In this document: positions 5,232 to 58,133 of the stretch, piece after piece
Position numbering within the stretch: position 1 is the first letter of the stretch
How the letters are laid out: every line of letters begins with the position of its first letter
IMG/VR virus record: IMGVR_UViG_3300037258_000356
Coordinates: 1-58,934 of that record
Reading direction: 5' to 3' (one strand)
DNA length: 58,934 bases
Origin: a virus
Made by a program: the position numbers and the translations under genes
Notes under the pieces: model-generated
Seen by the model: the letters and a program-made list of their open reading frames with translations, nothing else
Told to the model about the DNA's origin: nothing
The model's database searches: none

Positions 5232-6655
5232 ACGGAAGACCCCTGCACCGTTGGTGTGGTCAAGTCCGTTTGTGGCAGCGGCGCGGGTCCGGGGAGCGTG
5301 AGGTCGCTGGTGCCGGTCGGTGATGCGGTGAACCCGATCGCGAGGCCCGAGGATCCCGGTGGCACGTAGTCGACGCCGGGGACGTTTTCGATGAGGCCGA
5401 GGACCTTGTTGTAGCGGACGGTCGCGAAGCCTTGGACGCTGTTGAGCCACGGGGACTGCCCTGCGGCGTTTGCGGCGTTCTGGGGGTTGCCCCACAGGAA
5501 CGGGTTGAGGTAGGTGACGAGCGCCGCGTCGATGTTCGCGATGACGGCTGAGGCGCTGTACCCGGGAAGGATGTGCGCTTCGTAGGTGATGTAGACCTTG
5601 GTGAATGTCGGGGCGATGACGAAGACCTGGAAGTTGATCTCGCGGAAGCTTTCGAGCCATGTCGCGATGTCGCCCATGTCGGTCGAGTCGAGGGCGTTGC
5701 CGTTGGGGTCGGTGACGAAGACGGTGACGCAGCGGCTGTTGCCTGTGGTCCCGGCCTGGATCGAGACGCCGGAGGCTGTAGCGGTCGCGGCGGCGCTCAT
5801 GACGAGCGTGCTGGCGCCGGTGTTGGTGGAGACAACGGTGGTCCCGGCGGGGATCCCGTTGCCGGTGAGGACGGTGCCGGCGGCGACGTCGGTGAAGCTT
5901 GAGACGGAGCTGAGGGTGGTGCTGCTCGAGGTCGTCGATGCGGTGAACGTCGCGGCGTCGGGGTTGTACCCGTCGATCGCGGTCGCGCGGCCGATCGCGG
6001 TGGCGGACGCGATGATGCCGGACGGGATCGCAAGGGTTTTGACGGCGTAGTCGTTGGCGGTGATCGGCGCCTCGTTTAAAAGCGACAGCGCCTGGGCGAG
6101 CATGTCCTGGTAGGCGGGGTCGGTTTGCTGGTCCTGGCCTCCGGCGGTCTCGCCCGTGACGCTGATGGAGGTGACCCAGTCCAGGGCGTCGACGAGAGCG
6201 ATGGGGCTCGACAGGCCGTTGTAGGCGCTGCCGGTGTCGGAGGCGACGAGGTTGACCGTCGCGGTGCTCGATCCGGAGGCGACGATAACGTCGGTTTCGA
6301 CGTAGAACGCGTAGTCGGCGATCGTGACCTGCGTGCCACCGGGGATCGTGTGCCCGAGAGTGTCGGCCAGGGTCCAGGTGCTCGCCACGACTGCTGCGGC
6401 GCCCTGCTGGTAGGGGGTGTCGAGGAGCTGCGTTCCGAACTCGCGGAAGATCGCGGAGGGGACTTGGGCAGCGACGTTTGTGAGGTCGGCGGCTTGCGCG
6501 CCGCCGACGTTTAGAAGGACGATCTCCTGGTTGCCTTCGTTCGGCACGTAGCCGACGACGCCGTTCGCGGCGAGGTTCGCGGCGAGCCTGGCGATGGCGG
6601 TGTCGGTGATCGTTGCGGCGTCGGTGGTGAGCGCGATGTCGAGAAAGTCGGTCAC
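5228..6655 (-). CDS. Baseplate J-like protein
   Basis: 475 aa with the baseplate J order: N-terminal segment binding the gp25-like partner, central domain, and a C-terminal region with the characteristic GYSASAVIANIDAALVTYL and PWLNSVQGFA stretches. It forms the wedge arm of contractile baseplates. Residues 236-299 are an inserted beta-rich module (IPAGTTV...GAST) that also occurs in the sheath and major capsid proteins here. Start overlaps the gp25-like stop (ATGA). Confidence 0.85.
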   Translation of the reverse strand: MTDFLDIALTTDAATITDTAIARLAANLAANGVVGYVPNEGNQEIVLLNVGGAQAADLTNVAAQVPSAIFREFGTQLLDTPYQQGAAAVVASTWTLADTLGHTIPGGTQVTIADYAFYVETDVIVASGSSTATVNLVASDTGSAYNGLSSPIALVDALDWVTSISVTGETAGGQDQQTDPAYQDMLAQALSLLNEAPITANDYAVKTLAIPSGIIASATAIGRATAIDGYNPDAATFTASTTSSSTTLSSVSSFTDVAAGTVLTGNGIPAGTTVVSTNTGASTLVMSAAATATASGVSIQAGTTGNSRCVTVFVTDPNGNALDSTDMGDIATWLESFREINFQVFVIAPTFTKVYITYEAHILPGYSASAVIANIDAALVTYLNPFLWGNPQNAANAAGQSPWLNSVQGFATVRYNKVLGLIENVPGVDYVPPGSSGLAIGFTASPTGTSDLTLPGPAPLPQTDLTTPTVQGSSV

Positions 6656-13563: not shown

Positions 13564-15186
13564 CTATGCCGCGAGCGGCTCGTAGACGATGGTGATCGGA
13601 ACCTGCAGAGCGGACTCGGTGAGGTTCACCGTGAGAGTCGCGAGGAGTTGGCCGGCAGCAGCAGTCGTGGGGGTGTTGCCGGACGTGTCGACGGAGCCCG
13701 CATCGGTGGCGTTCGCGCCGAAGAGTGCCTTGGCCGCCCAGTGCGCGGCGATGGTGCCTTGAAGCTTGCCGGCCAGGGCCGCGACGGTGAGGCCCTGGCC
13801 GTCGATCGGGTCGAAGAGGTAGCCCTCGGCGTCCTCGAGCGCGTCGGCGGTGAGGGCCATGCGTTCGCGGCCGCAGTTGGCCTGCCAGAACACCTTGTCG
13901 GTGGCGGCTGCGGAGACGAAGCCGAAGAGGCAGAGGGTGCCGTAGCGGTTGGCCCAGGTGTTGATGCCGGCGGCTTCGAGGGTGTTTGTGTCGGCGGTGT
14001 TGTAGGTCTCGGTGAAGCCGGTGACGTAGTTGAGCGGCCAGTTGATGCCGCAGGGCATCTGGTTGTCGTTGCCGGTCGCGGCTACGCGCGCACAGAGCGC
14101 GGCGGCGACGGCGCTCGCGGCGACGGTGCGCGTGGTGCCGGGCGTGACGCCGGGGATAATCGGGCTGCCGGCGACTGGAAGGACGTGACCGGTGTGCTGG
14201 CCGATATTGCCGGCCAGCGCGGCGACGACGGCAGATGCGCTGGAGTTGTCTGCGAGGTCGATGAGCGCGTACCGGTTGTTGGTGTAGGCGTGCGCGGCGA
14301 GCGCGGCCCACACCGTCGCGTTGGACTGGCCGGGCACGGCGACCTGGCCTGGGCCGAGGGAGGCGGGGATGTTGTTGAGCGCGGCCGCGTAGCTTGAGGC
14401 GCTGATGTCGTTGGGGTTCGCGCCGCCGGTGAGCGCCGCGGCGCTCGAGGCGACCGGCACGTTGGTGGTGTTCCCGCTGCCGCTTGACTGGCTGAAGGTG
14501 ACGTACTCGGAGCTGGTGTCGGCGATGAGCTGGGCGGTGGTGATGTAGGGGCCGTGGCTCTCGAGGATGTCGCCGGCGGAGTCTTCGATCTCGACGGTGA
14601 ACGTGGCCGGGGTGATCGTCACGCCGGTGCCGCTGGCGGTCGCGTTCGCCGACAGCGTGAGCGTGCTTGCACCGGGGTTGACGGCGCTGACGTAGGTGCC
14701 GGCGGGGATGCCGGTTCCCGAGACGGGGGTGCCGACGCCGATGTTGGCGAAGCTCGACACGGCGCTGACCGTCGGGCTGGTCGAGGTGGTGGTGCCGGTG
14801 AAGGTCGTGCCGCTGCCACGGATGACGGCGACGTAGACGTTGTCACCGTCGATGCCGGGGGTGTCGGCGGTGACGACGACGGTGGGGTGCGGCGTCGCGT
14901 CGTTGAGCGTCAGAGCGGCGGCGACGGCGGTGTTGTCGTCGACGCGGACGATGTAGGCGTAGGTGCCGCCTTCGTGGAAGAACGCGTCAAGGGCGTCGTA
15001 GAGCACGCTGTTGGTCGAGCTGCGCGGTCCGATGACGGCGGCTGCGGCGGCGATCGAGTTGACGCCGACCGGGGTGGTGGGGCCTTCATCGGCGAGGCCG
15101 ACGAAGAACGCGACGCCGGTGGTGGTGGGCGGCCCGCTCGGGGTTTGGGCCTCGGTGTTGGTGACGGTGACGCCGATCGGGGACAT
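13564..15186 (-). CDS. Tail sheath protein
   Basis: 540 aa with the sheath-family pattern: N-terminal GVAFFVGLADEGP, middle ALIDLAD and YTNNRYA, C-terminal NRYGTLCLFGFVSA and AHWAAKALFGAN then LTVNLTESALQVPITIVYEP. It forms the contractile outer tail. Residues 128-191 are the beta-rich module (FTGTTTSTSPTV...GIPAGTYV) shared with baseplate J and the capsid protein, probably a surface-exposed insertion. Confidence 0.85.
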   Translation of the reverse strand: MSPIGVTVTNTEAQTPSGPPTTTGVAFFVGLADEGPTTPVGVNSIAAAAAVIGPRSSTNSVLYDALDAFFHEGGTYAYIVRVDDNTAVAAALTLNDATPHPTVVVTADTPGIDGDNVYVAVIRGSGTTFTGTTTSTSPTVSAVSSFANIGVGTPVSGTGIPAGTYVSAVNPGASTLTLSANATASGTGVTITPATFTVEIEDSAGDILESHGPYITTAQLIADTSSEYVTFSQSSGSGNTTNVPVASSAAALTGGANPNDISASSYAAALNNIPASLGPGQVAVPGQSNATVWAALAAHAYTNNRYALIDLADNSSASAVVAALAGNIGQHTGHVLPVAGSPIIPGVTPGTTRTVAASAVAAALCARVAATGNDNQMPCGINWPLNYVTGFTETYNTADTNTLEAAGINTWANRYGTLCLFGFVSAAATDKVFWQANCGRERMALTADALEDAEGYLFDPIDGQGLTVAALAGKLQGTIAAHWAAKALFGANATDAGSVDTSGNTPTTAAAGQLLATLTVNLTESALQVPITIVYEPLAA

Positions 15187-15243
15187 GCGTGATTGGCCTC
15201 CAGTGAGGGGGAGCGATGGGGGTGCGGATGGCCCCGATGGGGC

Positions 15244-15858
15244 TTAGGGTGCTTCGCCGACTACGGTAATTTCGGGCGTCTCGACGAGCGGCCACGGCGA
15301 GATCGGTGCTTCCGGCTCGGTCGGCGGGTCCGGTGTGGCGGGTCCGCCGGTGCCGGTGAGGATGCTGTTGACCCAGACGTGCAGGTCGATCTCACCGAGC
15401 GCGAAGGTGCGGTTATTGGGGTCCGGCAGGCGGAGGTCCCAGTCGAGCATGTCGGTGTTCGTGGCGATGCCGCCGAGCGAACCGTTCTGGACGAGCAGCG
15501 CGCCGACCGCGGCGACGTAGGTTGATGCGGCGTTGCGGACGGCCTGTTCCGTTTGGTCGGTGACGAAGATGCCGACGCTGAACGGGAAGAGCGCGTTGTA
15601 GCGGTCGCCGCCGGCCTTGTCGAACGGCGGGAGCTTGTCACCGACGATCACGACGGCGGGCTGGTTAAGGCCCTCCCAATTCGCTAGGTCAAACGACGGT
15701 CCGTAGGACTGCGGGCGTTCGATGGTCGGGACGGTGAGGTCGAGAACGCGCTCGAGCTGCGCGAGATACGTGTCAACCCACTTTTCGATCGTCGCGAGCA
15801 CAGCGGCCTCGACCTGGGATTGGGTGACGATCGGCCCGAAGACGCTCGGTGTGCTCAT
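15244..15858 (-). CDS. Tail terminator / head-tail joining protein
   Basis: 204 aa upstream of the sheath gene. An N-terminal helix (VEAAVLATIEKWVDTYLAQLER) precedes PAVVIVGDK and a FPFSVGIFVTD strand, a pattern seen in tail terminators that end tube growth and join the head. The C-terminal ~35 residues are Pro-rich and probably disordered. Assigned by synteny and pattern; family not certain. Confidence 0.55.
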   Translation of the reverse strand: MSTPSVFGPIVTQSQVEAAVLATIEKWVDTYLAQLERVLDLTVPTIERPQSYGPSFDLANWEGLNQPAVVIVGDKLPPFDKAGGDRYNALFPFSVGIFVTDQTEQAVRNAASTYVAAVGALLVQNGSLGGIATNTDMLDWDLRLPDPNNRTFALGEIDLHVWVNSILTGTGGPATPDPPTEPEAPISPWPLVETPEITVVGEAP

Positions 15859-16331
15859 AGTCCGCGGAGGCTGTCGAGCGGGTTGGCACCCATGATGTAG
15901 GTCTTCAGGATCTCGACGGCCGCGAGGCGCTCTTTGAGGCTGAAACGCAGCACGCGGCGGCGAACCTCGCCAGTGTGCGAGGCGGAGCTTGTGGTGCCGA
16001 ACTGAGCGAATTTGGCGTAGAACTTGTCGGTGCCGAAGACGAGCTCGGTCGAGGTGATCAGGCGCACGCCGCCTTCGATGGTGGTGACCTGGTGTTTCAT
16101 CTCGCCGGTCGCGACGAGCCGCTCCGACGACTGCCCTTTCGCCTGCTTCGACGCGACGGTCGCCGGCGCGAGCTGCGGGCCGCGACCGTAGAGCCGCTCG
16201 TTGCTTTTCGCGATCAGCTCCGCGATCTCCAAGAGCGCGGCCTCCGGCGCGCCGACGCGCTTTTGGAAGCGTTCGAACATGTCGGTGACTTCCTTCTCGC
16301 CGCTGACGGTGATGAGCGCGGTCAGGCCCAT
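15855..16331 (-). CDS. Phage virion morphogenesis (tail completion) protein
   Basis: 158 aa starting at the ATG at 16331 (TTAG/CAT overlap with the upstream stop). AELIAKSNERLYGRGPQLAP, ERLVATGEMKHQV and FYAKFAQFGT follow the pattern of the virion-morphogenesis/gpS family, which completes the head-tail joint in Mu/P2-type phages. Start overlaps the stop of the connector gene. Confidence 0.65.
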   Translation of the reverse strand: MGLTALITVSGEKEVTDMFERFQKRVGAPEAALLEIAELIAKSNERLYGRGPQLAPATVASKQAKGQSSERLVATGEMKHQVTTIEGGVRLITSTELVFGTDKFYAKFAQFGTTSSASHTGEVRRRVLRFSLKERLAAVEILKTYIMGANPLDSLRGL

Positions 16332-17221
16332 TAGAAGGAGTCTTCGAGGTAGGGGATGCCGTCGCCGAACGGGCCGGCGCCGAACAGCCATGGCCAGAGC
16401 GCGAAGATCTCGGGGCTGATGCCGCCGGGGCCGTTGGGGAACCACATGTCGGGCGGGAACTTCGACGGGTCGAACTTGCCGTTCGCCATCGCGGCCTGCC
16501 ACGCCTGAAACCGTGACTGGCGTTCGCTGAGAACGGGCACGGACCAGAACGAGGGGGCGGGGCTGGCGACGTCTTCTTGTGCGATCGCGCGTTTGAGCGC
16601 GGCGAGCTGGGTGGTGTAGAGCTGCTCGTACTGCTGGTAGCTCGACTGGTCGCGGTTCACCTCGTTGCGGTAGAAGGTGAGCTCGACGAGCATCGCCGCG
16701 TACAGCATCGAAACCCACCTGGTTTGCGCGTAATACGCGGGTGGGATGTCGACGCCGATCTCCATCAGGACGCCGTTGACGGCCTGGGTGAGCAGCATCT
16801 GCGCCTCATCGCCGGTGGGGCGCGTGAGGTCGTTGAACGTGCCGGCCTCGCCGCCGCCGCTGCCCGCGGTGACGGTGCGGGCGCGCATGAGCTTGCCGAG
16901 GTCGTCGACGGTGGGGCGGATCTCGTCGCCGACGCCCGGGGCGTTCTGGACGGGGTCGGATGGCGGCGACGTGTTGCTGCCGTCGAAGAACGCGATCTCA
17001 TACCAGCCCTGGTTGAGCGTCGCGTTGAGCGTCGTAAGGTTCCGCGACTGCGGGCTGGTCGGGTCGGTGTCTACGCCGTCAGGGAGGACCGACATCTGGA
17101 TGGTGTCGATCAGCGTCCACGGCCCCGTCGAGGCAGCTGCTTCGTAGATGTAGGCGGCGGTCCACGGGCGCCCGTCGTAGCGGGGTTGCGGCTGGACGTC
17201 GGCGAAGGAGACGACGCTCAA
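16331..17221 (-). CDS. Head-tail connector with N-terminal fibronectin-like domain
   Basis: 296 aa using a TTG at 17221 preceded by GGGAGG seven bases upstream; no ATG/GTG starts fit. Residues ~1-90 look like a fibronectin-III domain (AAYIYEAAASTGPWTLIDT). From ~95 on the sequence is helical (IRPTVDDLGKLMRAR, DIPPAYYAQTRWVSMLYAAM) like gp6/gp15-type connectors. A decoration domain fused to a connector would expose it at the neck. Function from pattern and position. Confidence 0.5.
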   Translation of the reverse strand: MSVVSFADVQPQPRYDGRPWTAAYIYEAAASTGPWTLIDTIQMSVLPDGVDTDPTSPQSRNLTTLNATLNQGWYEIAFFDGSNTSPPSDPVQNAPGVGDEIRPTVDDLGKLMRARTVTAGSGGGEAGTFNDLTRPTGDEAQMLLTQAVNGVLMEIGVDIPPAYYAQTRWVSMLYAAMLVELTFYRNEVNRDQSSYQQYEQLYTTQLAALKRAIAQEDVASPAPSFWSVPVLSERQSRFQAWQAAMANGKFDPSKFPPDMWFPNGPGGISPEIFALWPWLFGAGPFGDGIPYLEDSF

Positions 17222-17237
17222 CAGGTGCCTCCCGTGG

Positions 17238-18782
17238 TCAGGTGATCTTGATGAGGCCGCCGTACATCTGCTCGATCCGGCCGATCCGCGGAGCCGTCTG
17301 ATCCCAGCCGACCGTCGGTGCGAGGAACACCCACGGGTAGACGACGGCGTTGTCGACGAGCGTGTCGGCCGCAGCCGACAGGTCGGCAGCAGAGACGGCG
17401 AGGTAGCGGGCGCCGATGAGCGTTTCAACGGCGACAGCCTCGTCGGCTACGAGCCGTCCGATGATGAGCGCGGCGAGCGTGATCTCATCGCCCTCGAGGA
17501 GACTGTCGGCAGCGGTGATGAGAATCGTCACCGTGGGGGTAGCTCCGTCGACGCCGTCGAGCTCGTCGACGATTTGGCGGACGTAGTTCGACAAGGATTG
17601 CGTGAGATCGGTGGTCGCGCTGGCGTCGACCGCAGCGATGCTGTAGGCGGATTCCTCGAGAACGGTGTCGCTGATGGCTGCCTGGTCGGCGGCGGCTCGG
17701 GAGACAACGAGAACTTGGCTGAGAAGATCGAGGGTGAGACCGATGTCAGAAATCACGCGCACAGAACCTGAGGTCCACGTGCCCGAGACGGTGTCGACAG
17801 TTGCGGAGGGATCGGTTGCGGCGCGCGCGAGGGCGCGGGTGGTGGCGAGGCTGTCGTTGGCTGCGGCGGCTTCGGTGAGCGTTCGTAGAAGGTGCTCGAG
17901 GCGAGCGGGGCTGTCTGTGAGCGCGGCTGCTTCTGAGATCGCGACGTGGACCGTGGCGGTGCGATGCAGTGCATCCGCCGCCGCGGATGTGTTTGCCACA
18001 GCGCGCCCGATCGTGACGCCGAAGACGGCGCTGTCTGAGAGGGCCACCAGGTCGCCGGCTCCCGGGTAGAGCGCGGGCCCTGGGTAGAGGGTTGGGCCCG
18101 GTAATACCGGTGCGCCGGCGAAGCGCACGAGGCTGATGAGCGGCGCTCCTACGTCTCCGGCGGCAGCCGCGCTAGAGATGATGCGCTGAAGTTTTAGTGT
18201 GCGGATGACGCCGCCGACGGTGACGAGCGCGGCGCCCTGCATGCATGCGCCTTGTGCTGTAGGAAGCGCGCCTTGGCTTGTGAAGCGGGAACCGAAGCCG
18301 CCATCGGTGGTCGTTGCCGTGTCGTTTACGGCCGCGGCGCTCGAGTGTGCCGCGTTTGCCGTGTCGACGCTTTGCGTCGTCTGGGCGACGGCGCGAAGCA
18401 GTCCAGTGAGCTGCGTCGCAGCGCCCGCCGCGGCGGCGGAGTCAGCAGCGGCTATTCCCAGGCTTATCTTCGCGGAGAGGGCCTCGGCGACAGACGCGCC
18501 GTTTGTGATCGGCTTGCCGAGGCTGATTTTGACGGTGGCCGCGTCGGCTAGAGCGGCAGTGTTGGTCGTGGGCTTGCCGAGGCTGATCAGAACCGTCGCG
18601 GCATCGCTTGAGGCCGCTGTGTTTGCGATTACGTCGCCGGTGCTGACCCGGACCGAGGGGCTGTCAGCGATTGCGGCGGCGTCAGCGGCGGTGACGGTGA
18701 TGCTGACGACGGAGCGGATCGCGCCTTGGATACACGTACCCTCGCTCAGCCGCGTCGCACCCTGGGCGGTGAACGCGCTCAT
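17238..18782 (-). CDS. Repetitive Ala/Ser/Asp-rich virion-associated protein
   Basis: 514 aa made mainly of degenerate repeats of about 17-20 residues in which a small-residue/Asp run (SDAATV, ADAATV, AEALSA) alternates with LISLGKP or KISLGKPITN-type strands. A second motif, QGA...QGA near a Cys, occurs at residues 6-21 and about 173-186. The C-terminus (WVFLAPTVGWDQTAPRIGRI) is unique. No function recognised; position in the head-neck genes suggests a structural fibre or whisker. Confidence 0.55.
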   Translation of the reverse strand: MSAFTAQGATRLSEGTCIQGAIRSVVSITVTAADAAAIADSPSVRVSTGDVIANTAASSDAATVLISLGKPTTNTAALADAATVKISLGKPITNGASVAEALSAKISLGIAAADSAAAAGAATQLTGLLRAVAQTTQSVDTANAAHSSAAAVNDTATTTDGGFGSRFTSQGALPTAQGACMQGAALVTVGGVIRTLKLQRIISSAAAAGDVGAPLISLVRFAGAPVLPGPTLYPGPALYPGAGDLVALSDSAVFGVTIGRAVANTSAAADALHRTATVHVAISEAAALTDSPARLEHLLRTLTEAAAANDSLATTRALARAATDPSATVDTVSGTWTSGSVRVISDIGLTLDLLSQVLVVSRAAADQAAISDTVLEESAYSIAAVDASATTDLTQSLSNYVRQIVDELDGVDGATPTVTILITAADSLLEGDEITLAALIIGRLVADEAVAVETLIGARYLAVSAADLSAAADTLVDNAVVYPWVFLAPTVGWDQTAPRIGRIEQMYGGLIKIT

Positions 18783-18847
18783 GCGGGTCCTCGGCTCTGT
18801 GGAGGCTGACTAGACAGTTCCGCGGAGAGGGCCGCGGTGAGGCAGCG

Positions 18848-19636
18848 TCAGCGGGTTGCGACGATCCAGCCGCGCAACCCGTCTTGGGACCGCTCGCGTA
18901 GATCGAGGTGGAAGCCGACGTGGGTCAGTTTCTTGGTCAAGTCTTCGAGCCGGGAGTGTTTGGCGATGTCGGCGTGGAAGAGCACGAGCATCTTCTGGAC
19001 CCGGCCGAGTACCTCTGGGGCGGCCGTGATGAGAATCGGAAATTCGGCTCCTTCGCAGTTCATGCGCAGGAAGGTGCACGCAGGGATGTGGTGCTGCTCC
19101 ATGATTGACTCGAGCGACCGCGTCGGCACTGTCTCGCCACGGCCGCGAAGCATGATCGAATGTCCCCAGTTGCCGCGATCGTGAGCGAGGGTGGTGGTGC
19201 CATCACGTTCGGCGAGCGCGCAGTGGATGGTGGTGACGTTGTCGAGTCGGTTCGCGAGGCGATTCAGCTCGAGGTAGTTGAAGGTCTCTTCACTCGCCTC
19301 GATCGCGTAGACATGTGCGACCTTCGCGGCAACCAGCATTGTGAATGTGCCGATGTGCGCGCCGACGTCTATGACGACGTCGGCGGCTGCGGGCTGATAT
19401 TCCGGGAGCCGGGGGAGAAAGATGTCATGATCGAAGCTGTCTGCGAGAACTGCTTCGTCGCTGGTGCCTGCCCGGTAGGCGACGGTCAGACCGGCGGCGT
19501 TTCTGAGCGCGAGACGGTAGTCGACTTCGCCCGGGCGGAATGACCGTCGAGCGTTTTTGGCTGACTCGGAGAGGTCGGTGATCTGCCTGCGTGGCTGCTC
19601 GAAGATTCGACGGGTGAGCATGTGCGCAGCGTACAC
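18848..19636 (-). CDS. FkbM-family SAM-dependent methyltransferase
   Basis: 262 aa (GTG at 19636) or 257 aa (ATG at 19621). VVIDVGAHIGTFTMLVA at ~87-103 is the SAM-binding motif I; VYAIEASEETFNYLELN and LRMNCEGAEFPIL are FkbM hallmarks. The family O-methylates sugars and small molecules. Sitting among tail and connector genes as a separate cistron, it may modify glycans on the virion or on the host surface; this is inference. Confidence 0.75.
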   Translation of the reverse strand: MYAAHMLTRRIFEQPRRQITDLSESAKNARRSFRPGEVDYRLALRNAAGLTVAYRAGTSDEAVLADSFDHDIFLPRLPEYQPAAADVVIDVGAHIGTFTMLVAAKVAHVYAIEASEETFNYLELNRLANRLDNVTTIHCALAERDGTTTLAHDRGNWGHSIMLRGRGETVPTRSLESIMEQHHIPACTFLRMNCEGAEFPILITAAPEVLGRVQKMLVLFHADIAKHSRLEDLTKKLTHVGFHLDLRERSQDGLRGWIVATR

Positions 19637-19703
19637 CTGCAGCGTTGGCCGGGCGCATTTCTTGATGCGCCCAGGCGGTTAGGTTTCTGCCTACAAGGCA
19701 GGC

Positions 19704-20549
19704 CTAACTGAAAGCGAACCAGAACGGCGCGTTCGAGCCGGTCGTCCATGTCGCGGCCGTGGGAAAGGTCGTCTGTGCTCCCTGGATCACCGAGAACTGA
19801 TTGCCCACAGCGGATTTCTGGACATTCCCGTTGGGCTGACCGAATTCGAGGGCCAGCTGTGTCGTGCCCCACGTGCCGTTCGCCCAGGCCGCGAGATAGT
19901 AGCCCCCTGTCGTCGGCACCTGATAGGGCGTCGCGAGAGCGAACGAAAAGATGCCCTGAGCCGTTGTCCAGATAGAGCTGCTATTCAGGTTCGCCGTCTC
20001 GGCGAGCTGAGTCCCCGAAAGGGTGAACAGGCCGAGGCGCATGTCCGATGGCGTCGTGCCACCGCTGACCGCGACAGTGCCGATCGAGACGAAGATGTTG
20101 CTGACGATGTCGCCGGCGTAGAGGCCCATCATTGTCGCGACGACGCGCTGCGTAGCGAGCGCGCCGCTTGATGTTGCGGCCGCGAAGAGGTCGAACGTTT
20201 GGTCGGTGAATCCGAGCGCGGCGTTGCGCACCGCTTGACGGCCGGCAGAAGCAGCACGCAAGCCGGCTGCGGTGAAAACGTGGTAGATGCTCGCGCTGGA
20301 CGAGTGTGTGGCCGCGGTCGACCCCTCGACGCCGCGCACAACGGTCCACGTCGTGCCGGACTGGCCGGCGGTGACGAGCATGATTTCGGAGTCGATCAGG
20401 ATCCGGAAACTGCCGCCGAGCAGATCCCCTGCCGCCGCTGCGTTCGTCGTGATCGACGTCGCGGTCGTCGACGAAATCGACGATGCGAGGGTCGTCACAG
20501 CGGCCGCGACCCCCGGGGTCGGCGAATTGGCGATTACCTCCATGTTCAC
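19704..20549 (-). CDS. Tail/receptor-binding-type structural protein
   Basis: 281 aa. Residues ~35-95 contain FRILIDSEIMLVTAGQSG, TWTVVRGVEGSTAATHSSS, a beta module common in phage fibre proteins. The C-terminal ~140 residues (LGLFTLSGTQLAE, GGYYLAAWANGTW) look like a galactose-binding-type sandwich. Next to the tailspike gene. Carbohydrate binding is plausible but not demonstrated. Confidence 0.5.
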   Translation of the reverse strand: MNMEVIANSPTPGVAAAVTTLASSISSTTATSITTNAAAAGDLLGGSFRILIDSEIMLVTAGQSGTTWTVVRGVEGSTAATHSSSASIYHVFTAAGLRAASAGRQAVRNAALGFTDQTFDLFAAATSSGALATQRVVATMMGLYAGDIVSNIFVSIGTVAVSGGTTPSDMRLGLFTLSGTQLAETANLNSSSIWTTAQGIFSFALATPYQVPTTGGYYLAAWANGTWGTTQLALEFGQPNGNVQKSAVGNQFSVIQGAQTTFPTAATWTTGSNAPFWFAFS

Positions 20550-20566
20550 CTCCCCGCTTGGTGCTG

Positions 20567-23371
20567 CTAGTCAGAGAGCTGCAGTAGAACGGCGGCGATC
20601 GGGCCGAGGTCGGCAACGGCGATTCCAAGTGGCATGCCGAGAGGGTCGATGTAGCTCGCGGCGGCCGTGAGCAGCCCCTGGTCGTCGGCGGCAGTCGCGC
20701 CTGTGGCGTAGCGTGCTCGGATCATCGGCGTGCCCGTCATCCCGAGCCACTGTGGCTTGAGGCTCGCAGGAGCGCCGCTCAAGGCGGTCGGGGTGCCCGA
20801 GCATCCGGTGAACGTCGTGGATGTCTTGCCGGTGTACGTGACGGTCGTGCCAGCGATGTAGATCGTTCCCGACGACGGGAATCCGCTCGTGTCAAAGACG
20901 GTCACGGTGCTAGCCCCAGATGTCGCGGCGCCGTTAAGCTGGGTGCCGCTCATGATCGGTGATCCGCCGTTGTATGAGCCGGAGCCCGCGCCGACCGAGA
21001 GGTTCGCGAGCAGGAAGCCCATGGCACCGTTGGTCGGTTGCAGTCGGTCGCGCAGCGCCGCGCTGTAGTAGATCTGGCCGAACGAGCCGCTGATCGGGAC
21101 GGGCATGATCGCTGACGCGTTGGCCTGCTTCCAGCCATCCATGATGCCGCTAAGACCAAAGACGTTGACCCCGGTGACTGCGGCGCCCGAAGACAGCACC
21201 GTGGAGCTCGTGACCTCTGACTGAACGCCGTAGAGGTAGGTGCTGCCGGAGAGGCCGGCGTAGCGGAAGTAGGTGCTTCCCACCTGGCAGACACCGGAGG
21301 ATGGGAAGCTCGAGTTGGACGCGACTTGGGCGACGCGGCCGATCGCTGTGCCTGTGGCATTGGGGGTGGCGGCGACGCTTCCGGCGCCCGAGGACGGGAT
21401 CCCGCCGAACAGGAGGACGCCCATGGTTGCGTCGACCGTCAGTGACGTGTAGCTGATCACCTGGGAGCCGATGCTCAGCAGCCCTGAGTTCGGCATGTCG
21501 CCCATGTTGGCGACAAACGATCGAGCAGCGACGGTACCGGTACCTCCGGTGCATCCCGTGAGGGTTGCGGTCGTCGCGCCGGACGTGCTTGAGACCGTTA
21601 CCGAGATGCCGGTGTAGGTGACGGTCTGCCCTCCCTGAATGACGACCGTTCCGGCTGGCGGAAAGTTCGTCACGTCATCGACCTGAATTGTCGACTGCGG
21701 AAGGGTGACTGCGGTGACGAGCCTGGTGACGCCAGCGGTGGCTTTGATCGTGGTCTGCCCGGTCGTTAATGCTTCGACTGTGCGTGGAGGAATGGCGCCG
21801 CTGCCGAGATCGAGGTTTGCGCCGAGCGTCGAGCTGCCAGCGGCGCTCGGGAGAGACGCGAAGTTCAGGCCACCGATCATGGTGGCTCTTCCCAGGTGGG
21901 CCAGGCCGGCGGTCGTCCTGCCCTTGTACGCGGCGACTGCGACGCCACCGGCAGGCACGGTCGTGAGCGCGACTCCGGCGGGCACGCCGCCCGCGGTGGC
22001 GAATTGCGAGCCAAGGTCAGAGGTGGTTGCCGGGGAGTAGCTGACAGCGTCTCCGGCGGAGATCGCCGTTTGGGCTTTTATCAGCCGGAACTGGGTGGTT
22101 CCGTACGTGGCATTCAGGTAGCGGCCGCCGCTGTTGCGGACTGCTCCGGAGACGCGCGCGAACGGAACGCCCATGGCCTGGCATGCGTTTAGCATCGACG
22201 AGCAGTCACCGAAGTCGGAGTCGTACAGATTGACGCAGTCGATAGCGCAGCCTGACGTGGGGTCAGGCCCGGGGTACTGGCCCCAGAGCATGTCTCCGAA
22301 GACCCTCATGCCCTGGATCGTTCCGCACTGCACGAGCGCGCCCATCGGAACGCATCCGTCGGTGGGATAGGGACCGGCGAACCAGTTGGAGTTCGTGGCG
22401 GGCGAATAGATGTTCCACTGGTAGATCTCGCCAAGTTTGTTGGGGTCATAGACAAAGCCGCGCGCCATACCCTCAAACGAGGGCCCGAACATGCGCCAGT
22501 TGTAGATCAGATACTGCCCGGAGACCGACGATGGGCAGTAGACAACGGGCTGGCCGGAGCCGTGGTGGCATCGGTATGTCGTGACGCCTTGGATCGCGCG
22601 GTTGGTGCCAGTAACCGACGGGAGCAGGAAGTCGCAGAACGCACCCTGAAAGACTGATTCGATGAAGGACAGATCACCGACGGTGATGTAGTTCGTCGGG
22701 AACTCAAAGGAGGCGTAGCCGCCCCAAGTGCACCGGCGGAAGTAGTTGTGGTCGCCGATCGACGCCACGGAGGCGCGGAAGGCGCCTTGGACGTACACGT
22801 TGTCGACGTTGCCGTGATTGAGAAGGATTGCCCACGGCGCGGAAGGCGGAACTGATGTGTAGGTCCACGCAGTTGGCTGCTGAAGTGCCGACTCAAGGAA
22901 GAAGCCGGCCAGTACAGCGTGCCCCCCCCTGCCGTCGCCGGACGACCCGGGGTAGCAGTTGAACACCGCGTCGCCGGCACCGAGGCCGGCGGCCGCGATG
23001 TCGGCAACGATGGTCGTACCTGAGGTCGCGGCGTCTGCCCGGAATTGGCAGTTCAGGGGAACATGTAGCAGCGCGCCGACGGAACCGTAGCTGCCGTTGG
23101 TGCGCACCGAGCGCGTCGCGAGTCTGACGACGCCTCGTGGCGCGACGAGCGTTCCCCCCGTCGTTGAGGACAGCGCGTCGAGCTCGGCCTGGATCTGCGC
23201 GCAGTTATCGGTTGTCCCGTCGGCGACAGCTTGCGAGTTGACGACGGGCCCTTTGAGCGGCTTGAATTGAGCATCGGTGTAGGCGCCCCCGGCGGCGAAC
23301 ATCGCCTCGAGGTTCGCCGCGCTGATGGGGGGATTGGTGTTGTCGTGCCAGCCAAACGTGCCGATCGTCAA
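20567..23371 (-). CDS. Tailspike with pectin-lyase-like beta-helix
   Basis: 934 aa from a TTG start with GAGGAG upstream. The N-terminus (NLEAMFAAGGAYTDAQFKP, then DNCAQIQAELDALSS, GGTLVAPRGVVRLATRS) is the standard entry to a pectin-lyase-like right-handed beta-helix, which continues to about residue 430. After ~560 come several copies of a module built on FPPAGTVVI/FPSSGTIYI followed by a TYTG strand and a GC-containing turn. Such spikes bind or cleave surface polysaccharide. Catalytic residues are not identifiable by eye. Confidence 0.65.
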   Translation of the reverse strand: MTIGTFGWHDNTNPPISAANLEAMFAAGGAYTDAQFKPLKGPVVNSQAVADGTTDNCAQIQAELDALSSTTGGTLVAPRGVVRLATRSVRTNGSYGSVGALLHVPLNCQFRADAATSGTTIVADIAAAGLGAGDAVFNCYPGSSGDGRGGHAVLAGFFLESALQQPTAWTYTSVPPSAPWAILLNHGNVDNVYVQGAFRASVASIGDHNYFRRCTWGGYASFEFPTNYITVGDLSFIESVFQGAFCDFLLPSVTGTNRAIQGVTTYRCHHGSGQPVVYCPSSVSGQYLIYNWRMFGPSFEGMARGFVYDPNKLGEIYQWNIYSPATNSNWFAGPYPTDGCVPMGALVQCGTIQGMRVFGDMLWGQYPGPDPTSGCAIDCVNLYDSDFGDCSSMLNACQAMGVPFARVSGAVRNSGGRYLNATYGTTQFRLIKAQTAISAGDAVSYSPATTSDLGSQFATAGGVPAGVALTTVPAGGVAVAAYKGRTTAGLAHLGRATMIGGLNFASLPSAAGSSTLGANLDLGSGAIPPRTVEALTTGQTTIKATAGVTRLVTAVTLPQSTIQVDDVTNFPPAGTVVIQGGQTVTYTGISVTVSSTSGATTATLTGCTGGTGTVAARSFVANMGDMPNSGLLSIGSQVISYTSLTVDATMGVLLFGGIPSSGAGSVAATPNATGTAIGRVAQVASNSSFPSSGVCQVGSTYFRYAGLSGSTYLYGVQSEVTSSTVLSSGAAVTGVNVFGLSGIMDGWKQANASAIMPVPISGSFGQIYYSAALRDRLQPTNGAMGFLLANLSVGAGSGSYNGGSPIMSGTQLNGAATSGASTVTVFDTSGFPSSGTIYIAGTTVTYTGKTSTTFTGCSGTPTALSGAPASLKPQWLGMTGTPMIRARYATGATAADDQGLLTAAASYIDPLGMPLGIAVADLGPIAAVLLQLSD

Positions 23372-23408
23372 AGCAGCTCCTCACCACCCCGCGCGCTTAC
23401 CGCTGCTA

Positions 23409-24545
23409 CTAGGTGCCGGTGATCGTGTCGGTGATCTGGACGTTGTCGCCCGGGTTGTTCAGCGTCGCGGTTGACCCGAGCAACGTCTCGAACAGCAGCC
23501 GTCCGCCGGTCTGAGACTGGAACACGCCAACCTTCGCTACCACCACGGGGAGCACGTCGGTGCCGTTGGCGGTGAAGGTGTTGGTCAGCGTGTAGGTGTT
23601 CGTCCCGGTGGTGTGGCCGTAGACCGCCACCGCGCGGACGAGACCTCCTCCAGAGGTCGCGATCTCGCCGGTGAGCGTTGTGTCCGAGCCCCCTGTCGTT
23701 GGCGACCCGGTGTTAGCGGTGAGCGCGACCCACGCGGCCGGCGCCTGCCCTGACGCGATCGAGTACGCAGCCGTGCTCGAGGGCGTCGAGGCGGTCGCTC
23801 CGGAGCGCGAGCCAGGGGTTTCCCAGCGCGCAACGGTCACCGCGGTCGCGGTGTTGCCCGTGATGGTTCCCACGACGGCGCCGGCGTAGATGTCCTTGCC
23901 GACCCACTGGTTTGACGTCCACGACTTTGTCGTGTCGGTGAGCGTGGTTGCGCTCGAGCCGGTCGCGGTTCCCGCGACACCTGTGAGGTCTGCGAGCGCC
24001 TGCGCCCACAGGTCGCGACCCACGGCCTGGATCGCGCCGCCGGCGATCGGCGGCTGACCCTCGGCGTCCGCAGGCCCCTCGCCCTCAGCCGGCGGTGGCT
24101 GCTCGCTGGGCTCGCCGTCTGCGGGCTGCTCGGCCGTCTCGACCGGCATGCCAACGCCCATGAAGAAGTCCAAGTCCTCGTGCGTGAACTCGGGGACATC
24201 GACTCCGTGAAGCGAGCCTAGGTGGTTGGCGACAAGTGATCGTGCGACGTCGTGGTCGCTGTGCACCCACGCCGGGGCCGCGAGGCTGTGCTGTCGTGTG
24301 AACGCGAGGCCGATGTCTTTGACGGCGTCGACGATGCTCGCGCTATGCGGAATCACGAACGTCGTGATCGCCTTGTCAGCCCCGGTCGGCTGCTGCTCGA
24401 GCACGAAATGCGTCTCGCTGCCGTCAGCGGGGTTGATCTCCTTGCTGCCGAGCGGGCCGGCAGCGGCCGCTTCCTCCTCGGAGGCGGCCCGCCGCGTCGA
24501 GCTCGTCGGCGCGGTGTTTCCGATGCGAACGGTGATGTCACTCAT
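23409..24545 (-). CDS. Structural protein next to capsid gene
   Basis: 378 aa from the ATG at 24545. N-terminal ~180 residues include an Asp/Glu-rich FTHEDLDFFMGVGMPV and a Glu/Pro-rich linker. Residues ~190-260 hold a phage module (ATTLTDTTKSWTSNQW, GKDIYAGAVVGTITGNTATA), and the C-terminus (VVVAKVGVFQSQTGG, LLFETLLG) is a beta-domain typical of tail or decoration proteins. Precise role unknown. Confidence 0.5.
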   Translation of the reverse strand: MSDITVRIGNTAPTSSTRRAASEEEAAAAGPLGSKEINPADGSETHFVLEQQPTGADKAITTFVIPHSASIVDAVKDIGLAFTRQHSLAAPAWVHSDHDVARSLVANHLGSLHGVDVPEFTHEDLDFFMGVGMPVETAEQPADGEPSEQPPPAEGEGPADAEGQPPIAGGAIQAVGRDLWAQALADLTGVAGTATGSSATTLTDTTKSWTSNQWVGKDIYAGAVVGTITGNTATAVTVARWETPGSRSGATASTPSSTAAYSIASGQAPAAWVALTANTGSPTTGGSDTTLTGEIATSGGGLVRAVAVYGHTTGTNTYTLTNTFTANGTDVLPVVVAKVGVFQSQTGGRLLFETLLGSTATLNNPGDNVQITDTITGT

Positions 24546-24638
24546 GCGAACGGGTCTCCGTCGTGAAGGGGGCGGCGCGCGCGGCAACCCGGACGCACGG
24601 AGATGGCCCGGGCGCCGCGCACAGGAGCGAGATGCCTG

Positions 24639-25865
24639 CTACTCGGTGGGTGCGACCGTGTTGGACGCGTTGAGCAGCACGCCGAACGGCCAGCGCGAGC
24701 TCTCGTTCGGCTGGTCGTAGGTCACGACGTTCGCGACAGCGAATCCGAAGCGCGCGATGATTTGCAGCGCGACCGCGTTCTGCTGGGCGAGGTTGACAAT
24801 GATGTTTCCGGACGCGTCGGTGAGAACGGCCTCCTGCAGGATGCGGAAGCTGATGTCCTGACGGACGCCGAGCAGCCCCTGCGAGAAATCGCCGGCGATC
24901 GCGAGCGGCTCGTTGTCATTCAGCGTGACGCCGGACGCGGTTGCGGTAGCGTTGTTGTTGATGACGACGGTCGTCGCCGTCGCCTGCGTCGCCCCGCTGT
25001 TGTAGCCGGTGACGACCGACCCTGACGGGATGCCCGAGCCGGTGACCGCAGCGCCGATAGGCGGCGCGGTGCCAGCGGTGACCGACGTGATGTTCGGCGA
25101 GGTGCTGGTGGTGCTGCCGGTGAACGATGCGACGGCGGCGGGCCACAGGCCACGCAGCGGGTACTTGACCGGCTGGCCGTACCACTCGTCGGTCTGGACC
25201 TCGGGGAGTTCCTGGCCGGTCGTCATACGGGCGTTGCGGACGGCAAGTCGCATCGCGACCTTCGCCGCGATCGCGTCGATCTCGAAGCCCTCGCTCTCGA
25301 CCTTGTCGAACAGCAGCGCGATGTCAGCCGCAAGAGACCCGGCTGACTGGGCGGTCGTGCCGGCGATCACGCTGTTGCCGGCCGCCAGCGCCTGCGTGAG
25401 GATCGGCGCCGGGAACGACGCCGGCGAGCCGATGCCGAAGAACACGGCGGCGTCGAGCGCTCGCGCAACGGCCTCGGCCATGAGCGGCGTGACCTGCTCC
25501 CAAATCGGGTACTCCGAATCGTCGAGCAGCGTCCGCGAGATCGGGATGTTCGCCATGATCTCCTCGGCCTGGAGATACCGGCCTTCCCAGTTCGCGGTCG
25601 TCGTCTGCGAGAGCCCGTTGCCGTACGTGCCCGGGGTGATCTCGCCGGTGACGAAATACGCGGTCGGGAGCGCGCTCAGGACCGGGACGCGCTCCTGGTA
25701 GCGGCTCATCGGAATGTGGCGGAAGAACTGCAGCGCCGCCGAGCCGTGCGTGACAGCGGTGATGACCTCTGAGGCCTGCTCGAGCGGGACGAGGTTCTGG
25801 CCGCCGGCGACGGGCGAGCCGGGCCATGACCCGGTGCCGCGCGTGATGGCGTTCGAATACGACAT
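24639..25865 (-). CDS. Major capsid protein (HK97 fold)
   Basis: 408 aa after the scaffold gene. VPMSRYQERVPVLSALPTAYFVTGE-like N-terminal arm/E-loop, ALDAAVFFGIGSP and DIALLFDKVESEGFEIDAI spine-helix region, and a C-terminal FGFAVANVVTYDQP strand fit HK97-fold capsids. Residues 247-315 are the beta-rich module (FTGSTTSTSPNIT...GIPSGSVV) shared with sheath and baseplate J. It interrupts the domain after WPAAVA and would decorate the capsid surface. Confidence 0.85.
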   Translation of the reverse strand: MSYSNAITRGTGSWPGSPVAGGQNLVPLEQASEVITAVTHGSAALQFFRHIPMSRYQERVPVLSALPTAYFVTGEITPGTYGNGLSQTTTANWEGRYLQAEEIMANIPISRTLLDDSEYPIWEQVTPLMAEAVARALDAAVFFGIGSPASFPAPILTQALAAGNSVIAGTTAQSAGSLAADIALLFDKVESEGFEIDAIAAKVAMRLAVRNARMTTGQELPEVQTDEWYGQPVKYPLRGLWPAAVASFTGSTTSTSPNITSVTAGTAPPIGAAVTGSGIPSGSVVTGYNSGATQATATTVVINNNATATASGVTLNDNEPLAIAGDFSQGLLGVRQDISFRILQEAVLTDASGNIIVNLAQQNAVALQIIARFGFAVANVVTYDQPNESSRWPFGVLLNASNTVAPTE

Positions 25866-43970: not shown

Positions 43971-44980
43971 GCCGGCACCTCCTCGCCGACCGCGACCATC
44001 TGCTCGAGCAGCTGGATGGCCGAATCCTTGATCGGCAGTCCAGCCTCAGCGAATTTGTCTTCGATGATCGGTTGTAGCTTGGTCTTGACCGCCGTGTAGA
44101 CGGTGTTGTAGACACGATCTCGCAGTCCCGCGGCCCCCGCGGCCTCCGCGGCCCACGCGGCCCCCGCGGCCCACGCGGCCTCCGCGGCCCCCGCGGCCCA
44201 CGCGGCCTCCGCGGCCCCCGCGGCCTCCGCGGCCCACGCGGCCCCCGCGGCCCACGCGGCCCCCGCGGCCCCCGCGGCCCACGCGGCCTCCGCGGCCCAC
44301 GCGGCCTCCGCGGCCCACGCGGCCTCCGCGGCCCCCGCGGCCCCCGCGGCCCCCGCGGCCTCCGCGGCCCACGCGGCCCCCGCGGCCTCCGCGGCCCACG
44401 CGGCCCCCGCGGCCTCCGCGGCCCCCGCGTGCTCTCCGTGTTCCTTCAGCTTTTCAGCGACAGCTTCCCGAACGGTCTCGCGCAGCCGAGTCAGATGCTC
44501 GTTGCGGAGACTCCACATGCGCTCGCGAACAGGGCTGACCGCTCCGCGGGCAGCCCCAGCCGATCCTGCGTCGACGATCGGGGCGAGCTCGCGCATCGTC
44601 GCGGCCGCGTCACCGGCGCCGGCGAGATCAAGCCAAACCGGCAGCGCCTGGCGGACAGCCCAGTCTGCGGCGAGATAGCCGCGCGCTTCGCTGCGACCGT
44701 CGTTCGCGGTTGCGACGAGCCGTTCGGCGTTGTCGAGGACCCAGTGGTCGATGCGGTCGCGACCGTCCTGGTCGGTGCCGTCGTTGTAGCGGCGCAGGAA
44801 CGCGCCGATGACGGGGCAACAGTTGTCAGGGTGGTCCGTCCACGTTTGACCGGTGAGCCACGCGAATTTCTCCATGACACACCATCCGCAGACGTCGCCG
44901 TTGCTTGGCGCTTCGTGTGCTCCGGTGGTGAGCGGAATGTCCTTCGCGGCGGCGACGCGTTCGGGAATGAGGACTGGCAC
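43967..44980 (-). CDS. Phage protein with a 100-residue Ala-Ala-(Gly/Glu/Trp) repeat
   Basis: 337 aa from a GTG at 44980 with AGAGGAG five bases upstream; an ATG at 44995 overlaps the helicase stop. Residues ~20-150 ([49 protein letters not shown]) match a known actinophage family that carries Ala/Trp-rich segments. Residues 186-285 consist of strict AAx triplets with x = Gly (14), Glu (10) or Trp (10). A unique C-terminus ([20 protein letters not shown]) follows. Function unknown; the array may form a long helix. Confidence 0.75.
44126..44425 (-). repeat. 9-nt coding microsatellite, 34 variable codons
   Basis: Minus-strand unit = one of GGG, GAG or TGG (GGA once, at the end) followed by invariant GCC GCG. 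Seven of nine bases are constant over 300 bp; only the first two bases of the variable codon change. Slippage or recombination can change copy number without breaking the frame. Confidence 0.9.
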
Positions 44981-57990: not shown

Positions 57991-58084
57991 GGATGCCTAC
58001 CGAACGGCAGACGACCGGAGAATGCGTCTACTTGCCATGCATCCCTAGCATAGCGATGCTACCTGCTGTAAAGGGATAATCGCC
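57991..58084. repeat. 94-bp direct repeat of window start (transposon right end)
   Basis: Identical to 1-94. Divergence starts at once outside (GAAGTTGG phage sequence on the left copy, CTATTGAG host sequence here). Contains the perfect 16-base palindromic TAGCAT-NNNN-ATGCTA. Confidence 0.95.
58060..58084. repeat. Right terminal inverted repeat
   Basis: Ends AAGGGATAATCGCC. Complementary to 54414-54438 with two mismatches, and identical to bases 70-94. Confidence 0.85.
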
Positions 58085-58133
58085 CTATTGAGTCACCTGT
58101 CAACCGGGCCGCGCTCCGAAATAGCATCCGAAC

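Follow-up and report, generated by a model that had tools for sequence, protein, structure and literature searches.

Three segments encoded by a viral stretch of 58,934 nucleotides (IMG/VR record IMGVR_UViG_3300037258_000356; hereafter, the window) interrupt the major capsid, tail sheath and baseplate J proteins. We consider it probable that these segments are copies of a mobile, self-folding domain of ~64 residues, a member of the decoration protein family typified by phage Bridgette, and that they serve as in-line decoration on both head and tail. The original prediction, which was made by reading the sequence, placed the segments exactly: all three are in frame on the minus strand at the residues that it gave, and the identities that it assigned to the host genes were borne out by Pfam and PHROG matches (Table 1).

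Table 1. Module copies and their host proteins in the window. Bit scores were obtained with a profile built without window sequences.
Feature	Coordinates	Strand	Evidence
Major capsid protein, 408 aa, HK97 fold	24639..25865	-	Pfam Phage_capsid, E 8e-13; phrog_10 major head protein, E 6e-28
Module copy, capsid protein residues 247-315	24921..25127	-	54.3 bits
Tail sheath protein, 540 aa	13564..15186	-	phrog_23 tail sheath, E 6.4e-30
Module copy, tail sheath residues 128-191	14614..14805	-	62.6 bits
Baseplate J protein, 475 aa	5228..6655	-	Pfam Baseplate_J, E 7e-10
Module copy, baseplate J residues 236-299	5759..5950	-	46.5 bits

The three segments were related to one another by several measures. 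When the capsid copy was used as a query of the whole record, the only matches besides itself were the other two copies (E 2e-7 with 46% identity and E 8e-7 with 50% identity). The alignment of the three copies contained 23 invariant columns, and they could also be aligned at the DNA level, with a mean column identity of 75%. A test profile of 23 modules, all from other viruses, was run over the 1,012 open frames of the window. The three segments scored 46.5 to 62.6 bits, and the next best frame scored 8.7 bits, such that this profile detected no fourth copy in the window. Scored as bare segments, the copies reached 53.5 to 69.8 bits, whereas the best of 2,000 composition-preserving shuffles of each reached 9.1 bits; a composition rich in Thr, Ser, Ala and Gly therefore does not explain the match. 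Profile, shuffle control and within-genome search agree that, as predicted, one module is common to three unrelated proteins, and at the sequence level the segments are homologous copies of a single domain family. The GC and GC3 contents of the inserts matched those of the surrounding genes, and no foreign base composition was seen.

Comparison with relatives identified each window copy, by alignment, as a clean insert in its host protein. As single full-length queries, the window proteins retrieved only 0, 1 and 4 viral relatives, and alignments were needed as queries instead. Among the best-scoring viral relatives kept in the survey, which are not all that exist, the module was present in 2 of 80 capsid proteins, 7 of 74 baseplate J proteins and 1 of 37 sheath proteins; strongly diverged copies can drop below the profile threshold, as did a capsid copy in contig G005 that was visible by alignment only. 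In capsid and J relatives that lack the module, the site was mostly spanned by 0 to 12 residues, and some J proteins carried a different insert. The sheath site was more variable among module-free relatives than were the other two. The nearest sheath relative (contig G025, 54% identical outside the site) had three residues in place of the module, though this virus carried one in J and in J only; cases of this kind indicate that the presence of the module varies between close relatives. Isolated phages gave a consistent picture: in capsids of the Bridgette/Eileen group, both flanks matched and ~300 residues corresponded to a query span of 376; the J protein of Vibaki likewise matched on both flanks and skipped the segment; and sheaths of Arthrobacter and Gordonia phages matched the window sheath up to residue 121 or 122. 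The original prediction had named different folds of the segments, or membership in the conserved core of each family, as grounds for abandoning it. We found instead that the module is absent from most relatives and is predicted to fold alone. Baseplate J proteins at seven other loci (L313, L314, L316, L321, L324, L336 and L339) carried a different insert of roughly 125 to 160 amino acids at the same site, one of which weakly resembled CBM_4_9 (E 0.003, under the Pfam cutoff). Judged from these alignments, the J site appears to be a favored position for the insertion of surface domains.

AlphaFold2 modeling of the isolated sheath copy with an alignment of 26 modules gave a confident structure (pLDDT 94.0, pTM 0.78) of six strands and no helix, consistent with a compact beta domain of ~64 residues that folds on its own. 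Searching 177,635 PDB sequences with the module profile returned a single match under E 1, chain 1 of 8eci (E 7.9e-5). The same chain was the top Foldseek match of the model in the PDB (probability 1.00, TM score 0.72 over 66 columns, 35% identity), with an E value of only 0.02 that depends partly on sequence. This chain is the decoration (cement) protein, gp7, of the source of entry 8eci, Arthrobacter phage Bridgette. Matches by fold in BFVD were tail collar proteins, an HK97 capsid protein of an uncultured phage, a baseplate wedge initiator and the decoration protein of phage Judy. Profile and predicted fold together assign the module and the main domain of the capsid decoration protein of Bridgette-type phages to one family. 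None of the 26 modules matched any Pfam or NCBIfam family, Ig-like families included, at E 0.01, and no Ig domain appeared by name among the 50 PDB fold matches listed for the six strands in 69 residues. For decoration proteins of the lambda gpD or beta-tulip type, the only HDPD match was the J copy, at E 0.08 and 13.5 bits against a cutoff of 29.1. PHROG matches of the module were to uncharacterized or generic virion families.

The capsid protein that hosts the module led to the same phage. The closest solved chain to the window capsid protein was 8eci_C, the Bridgette major capsid protein (E 1.7e-65), which is free of the insert: it aligned to window residues 22-247 and 322-397, with ~5 residues replacing the insert, and the capsid protein of Eileen, a phage of the same group, was aligned as well. 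The nearest solved relative of the module and the closest solved capsid protein thus come from one phage. The full-length model of the window capsid protein had the HK97 fold, with 8eci as its best structural match (E 2e-27); the module region of this model was of low confidence (pLDDT about 47 to 78), and few rows of the underlying alignment bore the module. From the domain limits of the P74-26 capsid protein (PMC6775164), we infer that the insertion site is part of the A-domain, immediately ahead of the point at which the chain re-enters the P-domain.

In Eileen, the gene for the 126-residue decoration protein immediately follows the capsid gene, and Bridgette and the rest of the group carry a decoration gene at the matching position. 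The same arrangement was observed at 4 of 80 viral capsid loci (L249, L257, L260 and L278), where a free module gene directly follows an insert-free capsid gene; the products matched the module at E 1e-9 to 1e-11 and were 49 to 69% identical to the Eileen protein. Beside the capsid genes with an in-line module (the window, L200 and L201), we detected no free decoration gene, and at L201 the gene after the capsid encodes a 408-residue protein that itself contains a module. When the 126-residue decoration protein was searched by tblastn against the window and L197, only modules were found, the adjoining genes being others; its C-terminal half had no counterpart in the window. Because the numbers are small, these gene arrangements only suggest that the free and in-line forms are mutually exclusive. 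The window domain and Bridgette gp7 are alike by profile and by fold. They differ in that gp7 is made as a separate protein of 126 residues, C-terminal tail included, from a gene that follows the capsid gene, whereas the window domain lies in-line, has no such tail and is present in further copies in the sheath and baseplate. Tentatively, and with rather less confidence than we place in the decoration reading itself, we propose that the free cement protein and the capsid insert can substitute for each other as two forms of a single mobile domain, which may have moved among cement gene, capsid, sheath and baseplate in this capsid lineage; the in-line form would replace the free cement, and one surface chemistry would extend over the virion.

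The combination of hosts seen in the window recurred in other viruses. Contig G032 (45 kb) encodes the module in its capsid, sheath and J proteins at the same sites as the window, with a strongly diverged capsid copy and an additional module in the gene after the capsid; each of the three host proteins is about 42 to 43% identical to its window counterpart. Contig G001 has the module in sheath and J. Contig G005 has strongly diverged modules in capsid and J and a clear further copy at the C terminus of J. At L023/L200, a capsid protein 59% identical to that of the window bears the module at the capsid site. Retention at the same site was seen in sheaths 51% identical to one another and in J proteins 41 to 59% identical. 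Trees of the modules grouped copies by host protein and not by genome (support values of 94/85 for sheath, 95/93 for J and 88/83 for decoration proteins). Support for joining the sheath and J groups was weak (83/70), and the tree left the window capsid copy unplaced; the sheath and J copies may share a common ancestor. Between the sheath and J copies of the window, codons were identical at 22 of 37 identical residues, only a little above the 17.2 expected from codon usage. Tree grouping and codon comparison together indicate that the copies are old in each slot and rule out recent duplication within the genome. The original prediction that the domain had spread within one virion, taken as a recent event, was therefore not upheld.

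The module was also widespread beyond these contigs. At least 237 viral stretches encode relatives; the proteins that host them include members of tail fiber, tail collar, baseplate wedge, minor tail, major tail, head closure and head-tail adaptor families. A scan of bacterial genomes with the three window copies as query gave no match, and with the wider alignment as query it identified 128 stretches encoding relatives. In bacteria, the module occurs in long proteins (median open frame, 1,586 amino acids, many cut by the end of the locus), in arrays of up to 16 modules (L110-L188), the sources being chiefly Verrucomicrobia and other environmental groups. Among four such proteins examined, one carried Por_Secre_tail (secretion sorting) and Ig_7 domains, one PATR repeats and two Ferritin_2. 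The sheath copy matched nothing in isolated phage genomes at E 0.01, a consensus-like module used as query matched only cyanophage proteins, and no module was found in plasmids. Taken together, these searches define a family that is unnamed in Pfam and NCBIfam and common in phage virion and bacterial surface proteins.

How might such a domain act in the window virion? Because the capsid protein has the module in one of its own loops, each capsid subunit would contain a copy, and domains of this kind also interrupt loops of the sheath and baseplate J. Most likely, they would cover and strengthen the exterior of head and tail by contacting neighboring subunits side to side. This reading draws on kinship to the cement protein and on the precedent of phage Sf6, whose capsid insertion domain is described as making contacts that take the place of a decoration protein (PMC6775164). 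The virion-surface role that had been predicted for the segments gains indirect support from the same source, the nearest solved relative being a capsid decoration protein, and by this analogy we infer that they are exposed on the virion and stabilize it. Two considerations limit the analogy. The Bridgette cement protein is reported to be a dimer that bridges two P-hexons around the penton (PMC13033339); since it occupies only the surroundings of pentons, in-line copies on every subunit cannot all make the same contacts. Moreover, the module is common in tail fibers, collars and bacterial surface proteins, where stabilizing a capsid cannot be its task.

This last distribution bears on the most serious competing explanation, that the module is a weak adhesion domain whose many copies along head and tail bind cell-wall glycans or polysaccharide of the host or environment. 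Its frequency in tail fiber, tail collar and baseplate proteins fits such a role, as do the long bacterial arrays, some in company with Por_Secre_tail, PATR or Ig_7, and the CBM_4_9-like insert found elsewhere in the J slot; carbohydrate binding has also been ascribed to other decoration proteins such as Hoc and pb10 (PMC7602432). However, wherever a column was at least 70% conserved across 127 distinct viral modules, the residue was Gly, Thr, Ser, Ile, Pro or Ala, and the modules averaged about 2.2 aromatic and 2.8 charged residues, none of them conserved, which makes a shared sugar-binding site unlikely. No carbohydrate-binding Pfam family was matched by the modules. Glycan binding, as put forward in the original prediction, thus found no specific support beyond weak hints of adhesion, and we regard adhesion as the main function as unlikely; under the decoration reading, any adhesion would be weak and secondary.

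Alternatively, the module could be a neutral or near-neutral passenger, a small stable domain that loops tolerate, spread by recombination and acting as a spacer. Its variable presence among close relatives, the module-free nearest sheath included, would fit, as would its simple, uncharged composition and the strong divergence of some copies (the G032 capsid and G005). Retention at one site across the divergent sheath and J proteins described above argues otherwise: together with the 78% identity of the G001 and window sheath modules, as opposed to 51% for the whole sheaths, it indicates that the module is constrained. That a free decoration protein uses the domain independently likewise speaks for a function, and we consider a passenger decidedly less probable than an adhesion domain. 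Least credible of all is a chance likeness of Thr/Ser/Ala/Gly-rich linkers without homology. Although the strongly biased composition and the lack of a Pfam name might invite this idea, the shuffle control rules out chance arising from biased composition, the order of motifs is common to hundreds of viral stretches and the fold is confidently predicted, such that its probability is negligible.

In-line decoration by this family would join several known kinds of virion domain. Promiscuous Ig-like domains are known across these classes of virion protein (Fraser et al. 2006, according to the summary in PMC7602432). As that summary describes them, they resemble the module as beta domains recurring in tail fibers, the baseplate wedge, major tail proteins, capsid insertions and decoration proteins; in contrast, the module matches no Ig model in Pfam and is smaller (~64 amino acids, six strands). 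The I-domain of Sf6 and the BIG2 domain of phi29 are likewise fused to an HK97-fold capsid protein (PMC6775164, PMC7602432), but the module belongs to a different family, and its insertion site is probably different. Extra beta domains on phage tail sheaths, proposed to act in adhesion or stability (PMC9230969), share the plan of a sheath core plus an added beta domain; they are mostly described as Ig-like, whereas the module is of the decoration type and recurs in the capsid and baseplate of one virion. Our search of the open-access literature found no paper describing this module family and its free and in-line states. What is new here is a family without a name, its relationship to a decoration protein of solved structure and the occurrence of free and in-line states on comparable capsids, which offers a testable case for the gain, fusion and reuse of decoration functions. 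The domain deserves a name, which would serve hundreds of surface proteins of phages and bacteria that now lack annotation, and its positions mark loops of the capsid, sheath and baseplate J proteins that accept foreign domains.

Several other features of the window were noted. The gene directly after the capsid (23409-24587, minus strand; 392 amino acids as the longest frame) has, in its second half, a different Thr-rich beta repeat, seen by eye as 'TATGSSATTLTDTTKSWTSNQWVGKDIYAG'. A 934-residue protein (20567-23371, minus strand) contains repeated 'SSGTIYIAGTTVTYTG'-type segments that by eye resemble another recurring virion module. Among the tail genes, the product of 18848-19636 (minus strand) appears by eye to be an FkbM-like methyltransferase. 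A tandem array with a 9-base unit lies within an open frame at 44064-44470 (family D1), and a direct repeat with 94% identity (1-108 and 57991-58098; family D13) is located near both ends of the record.
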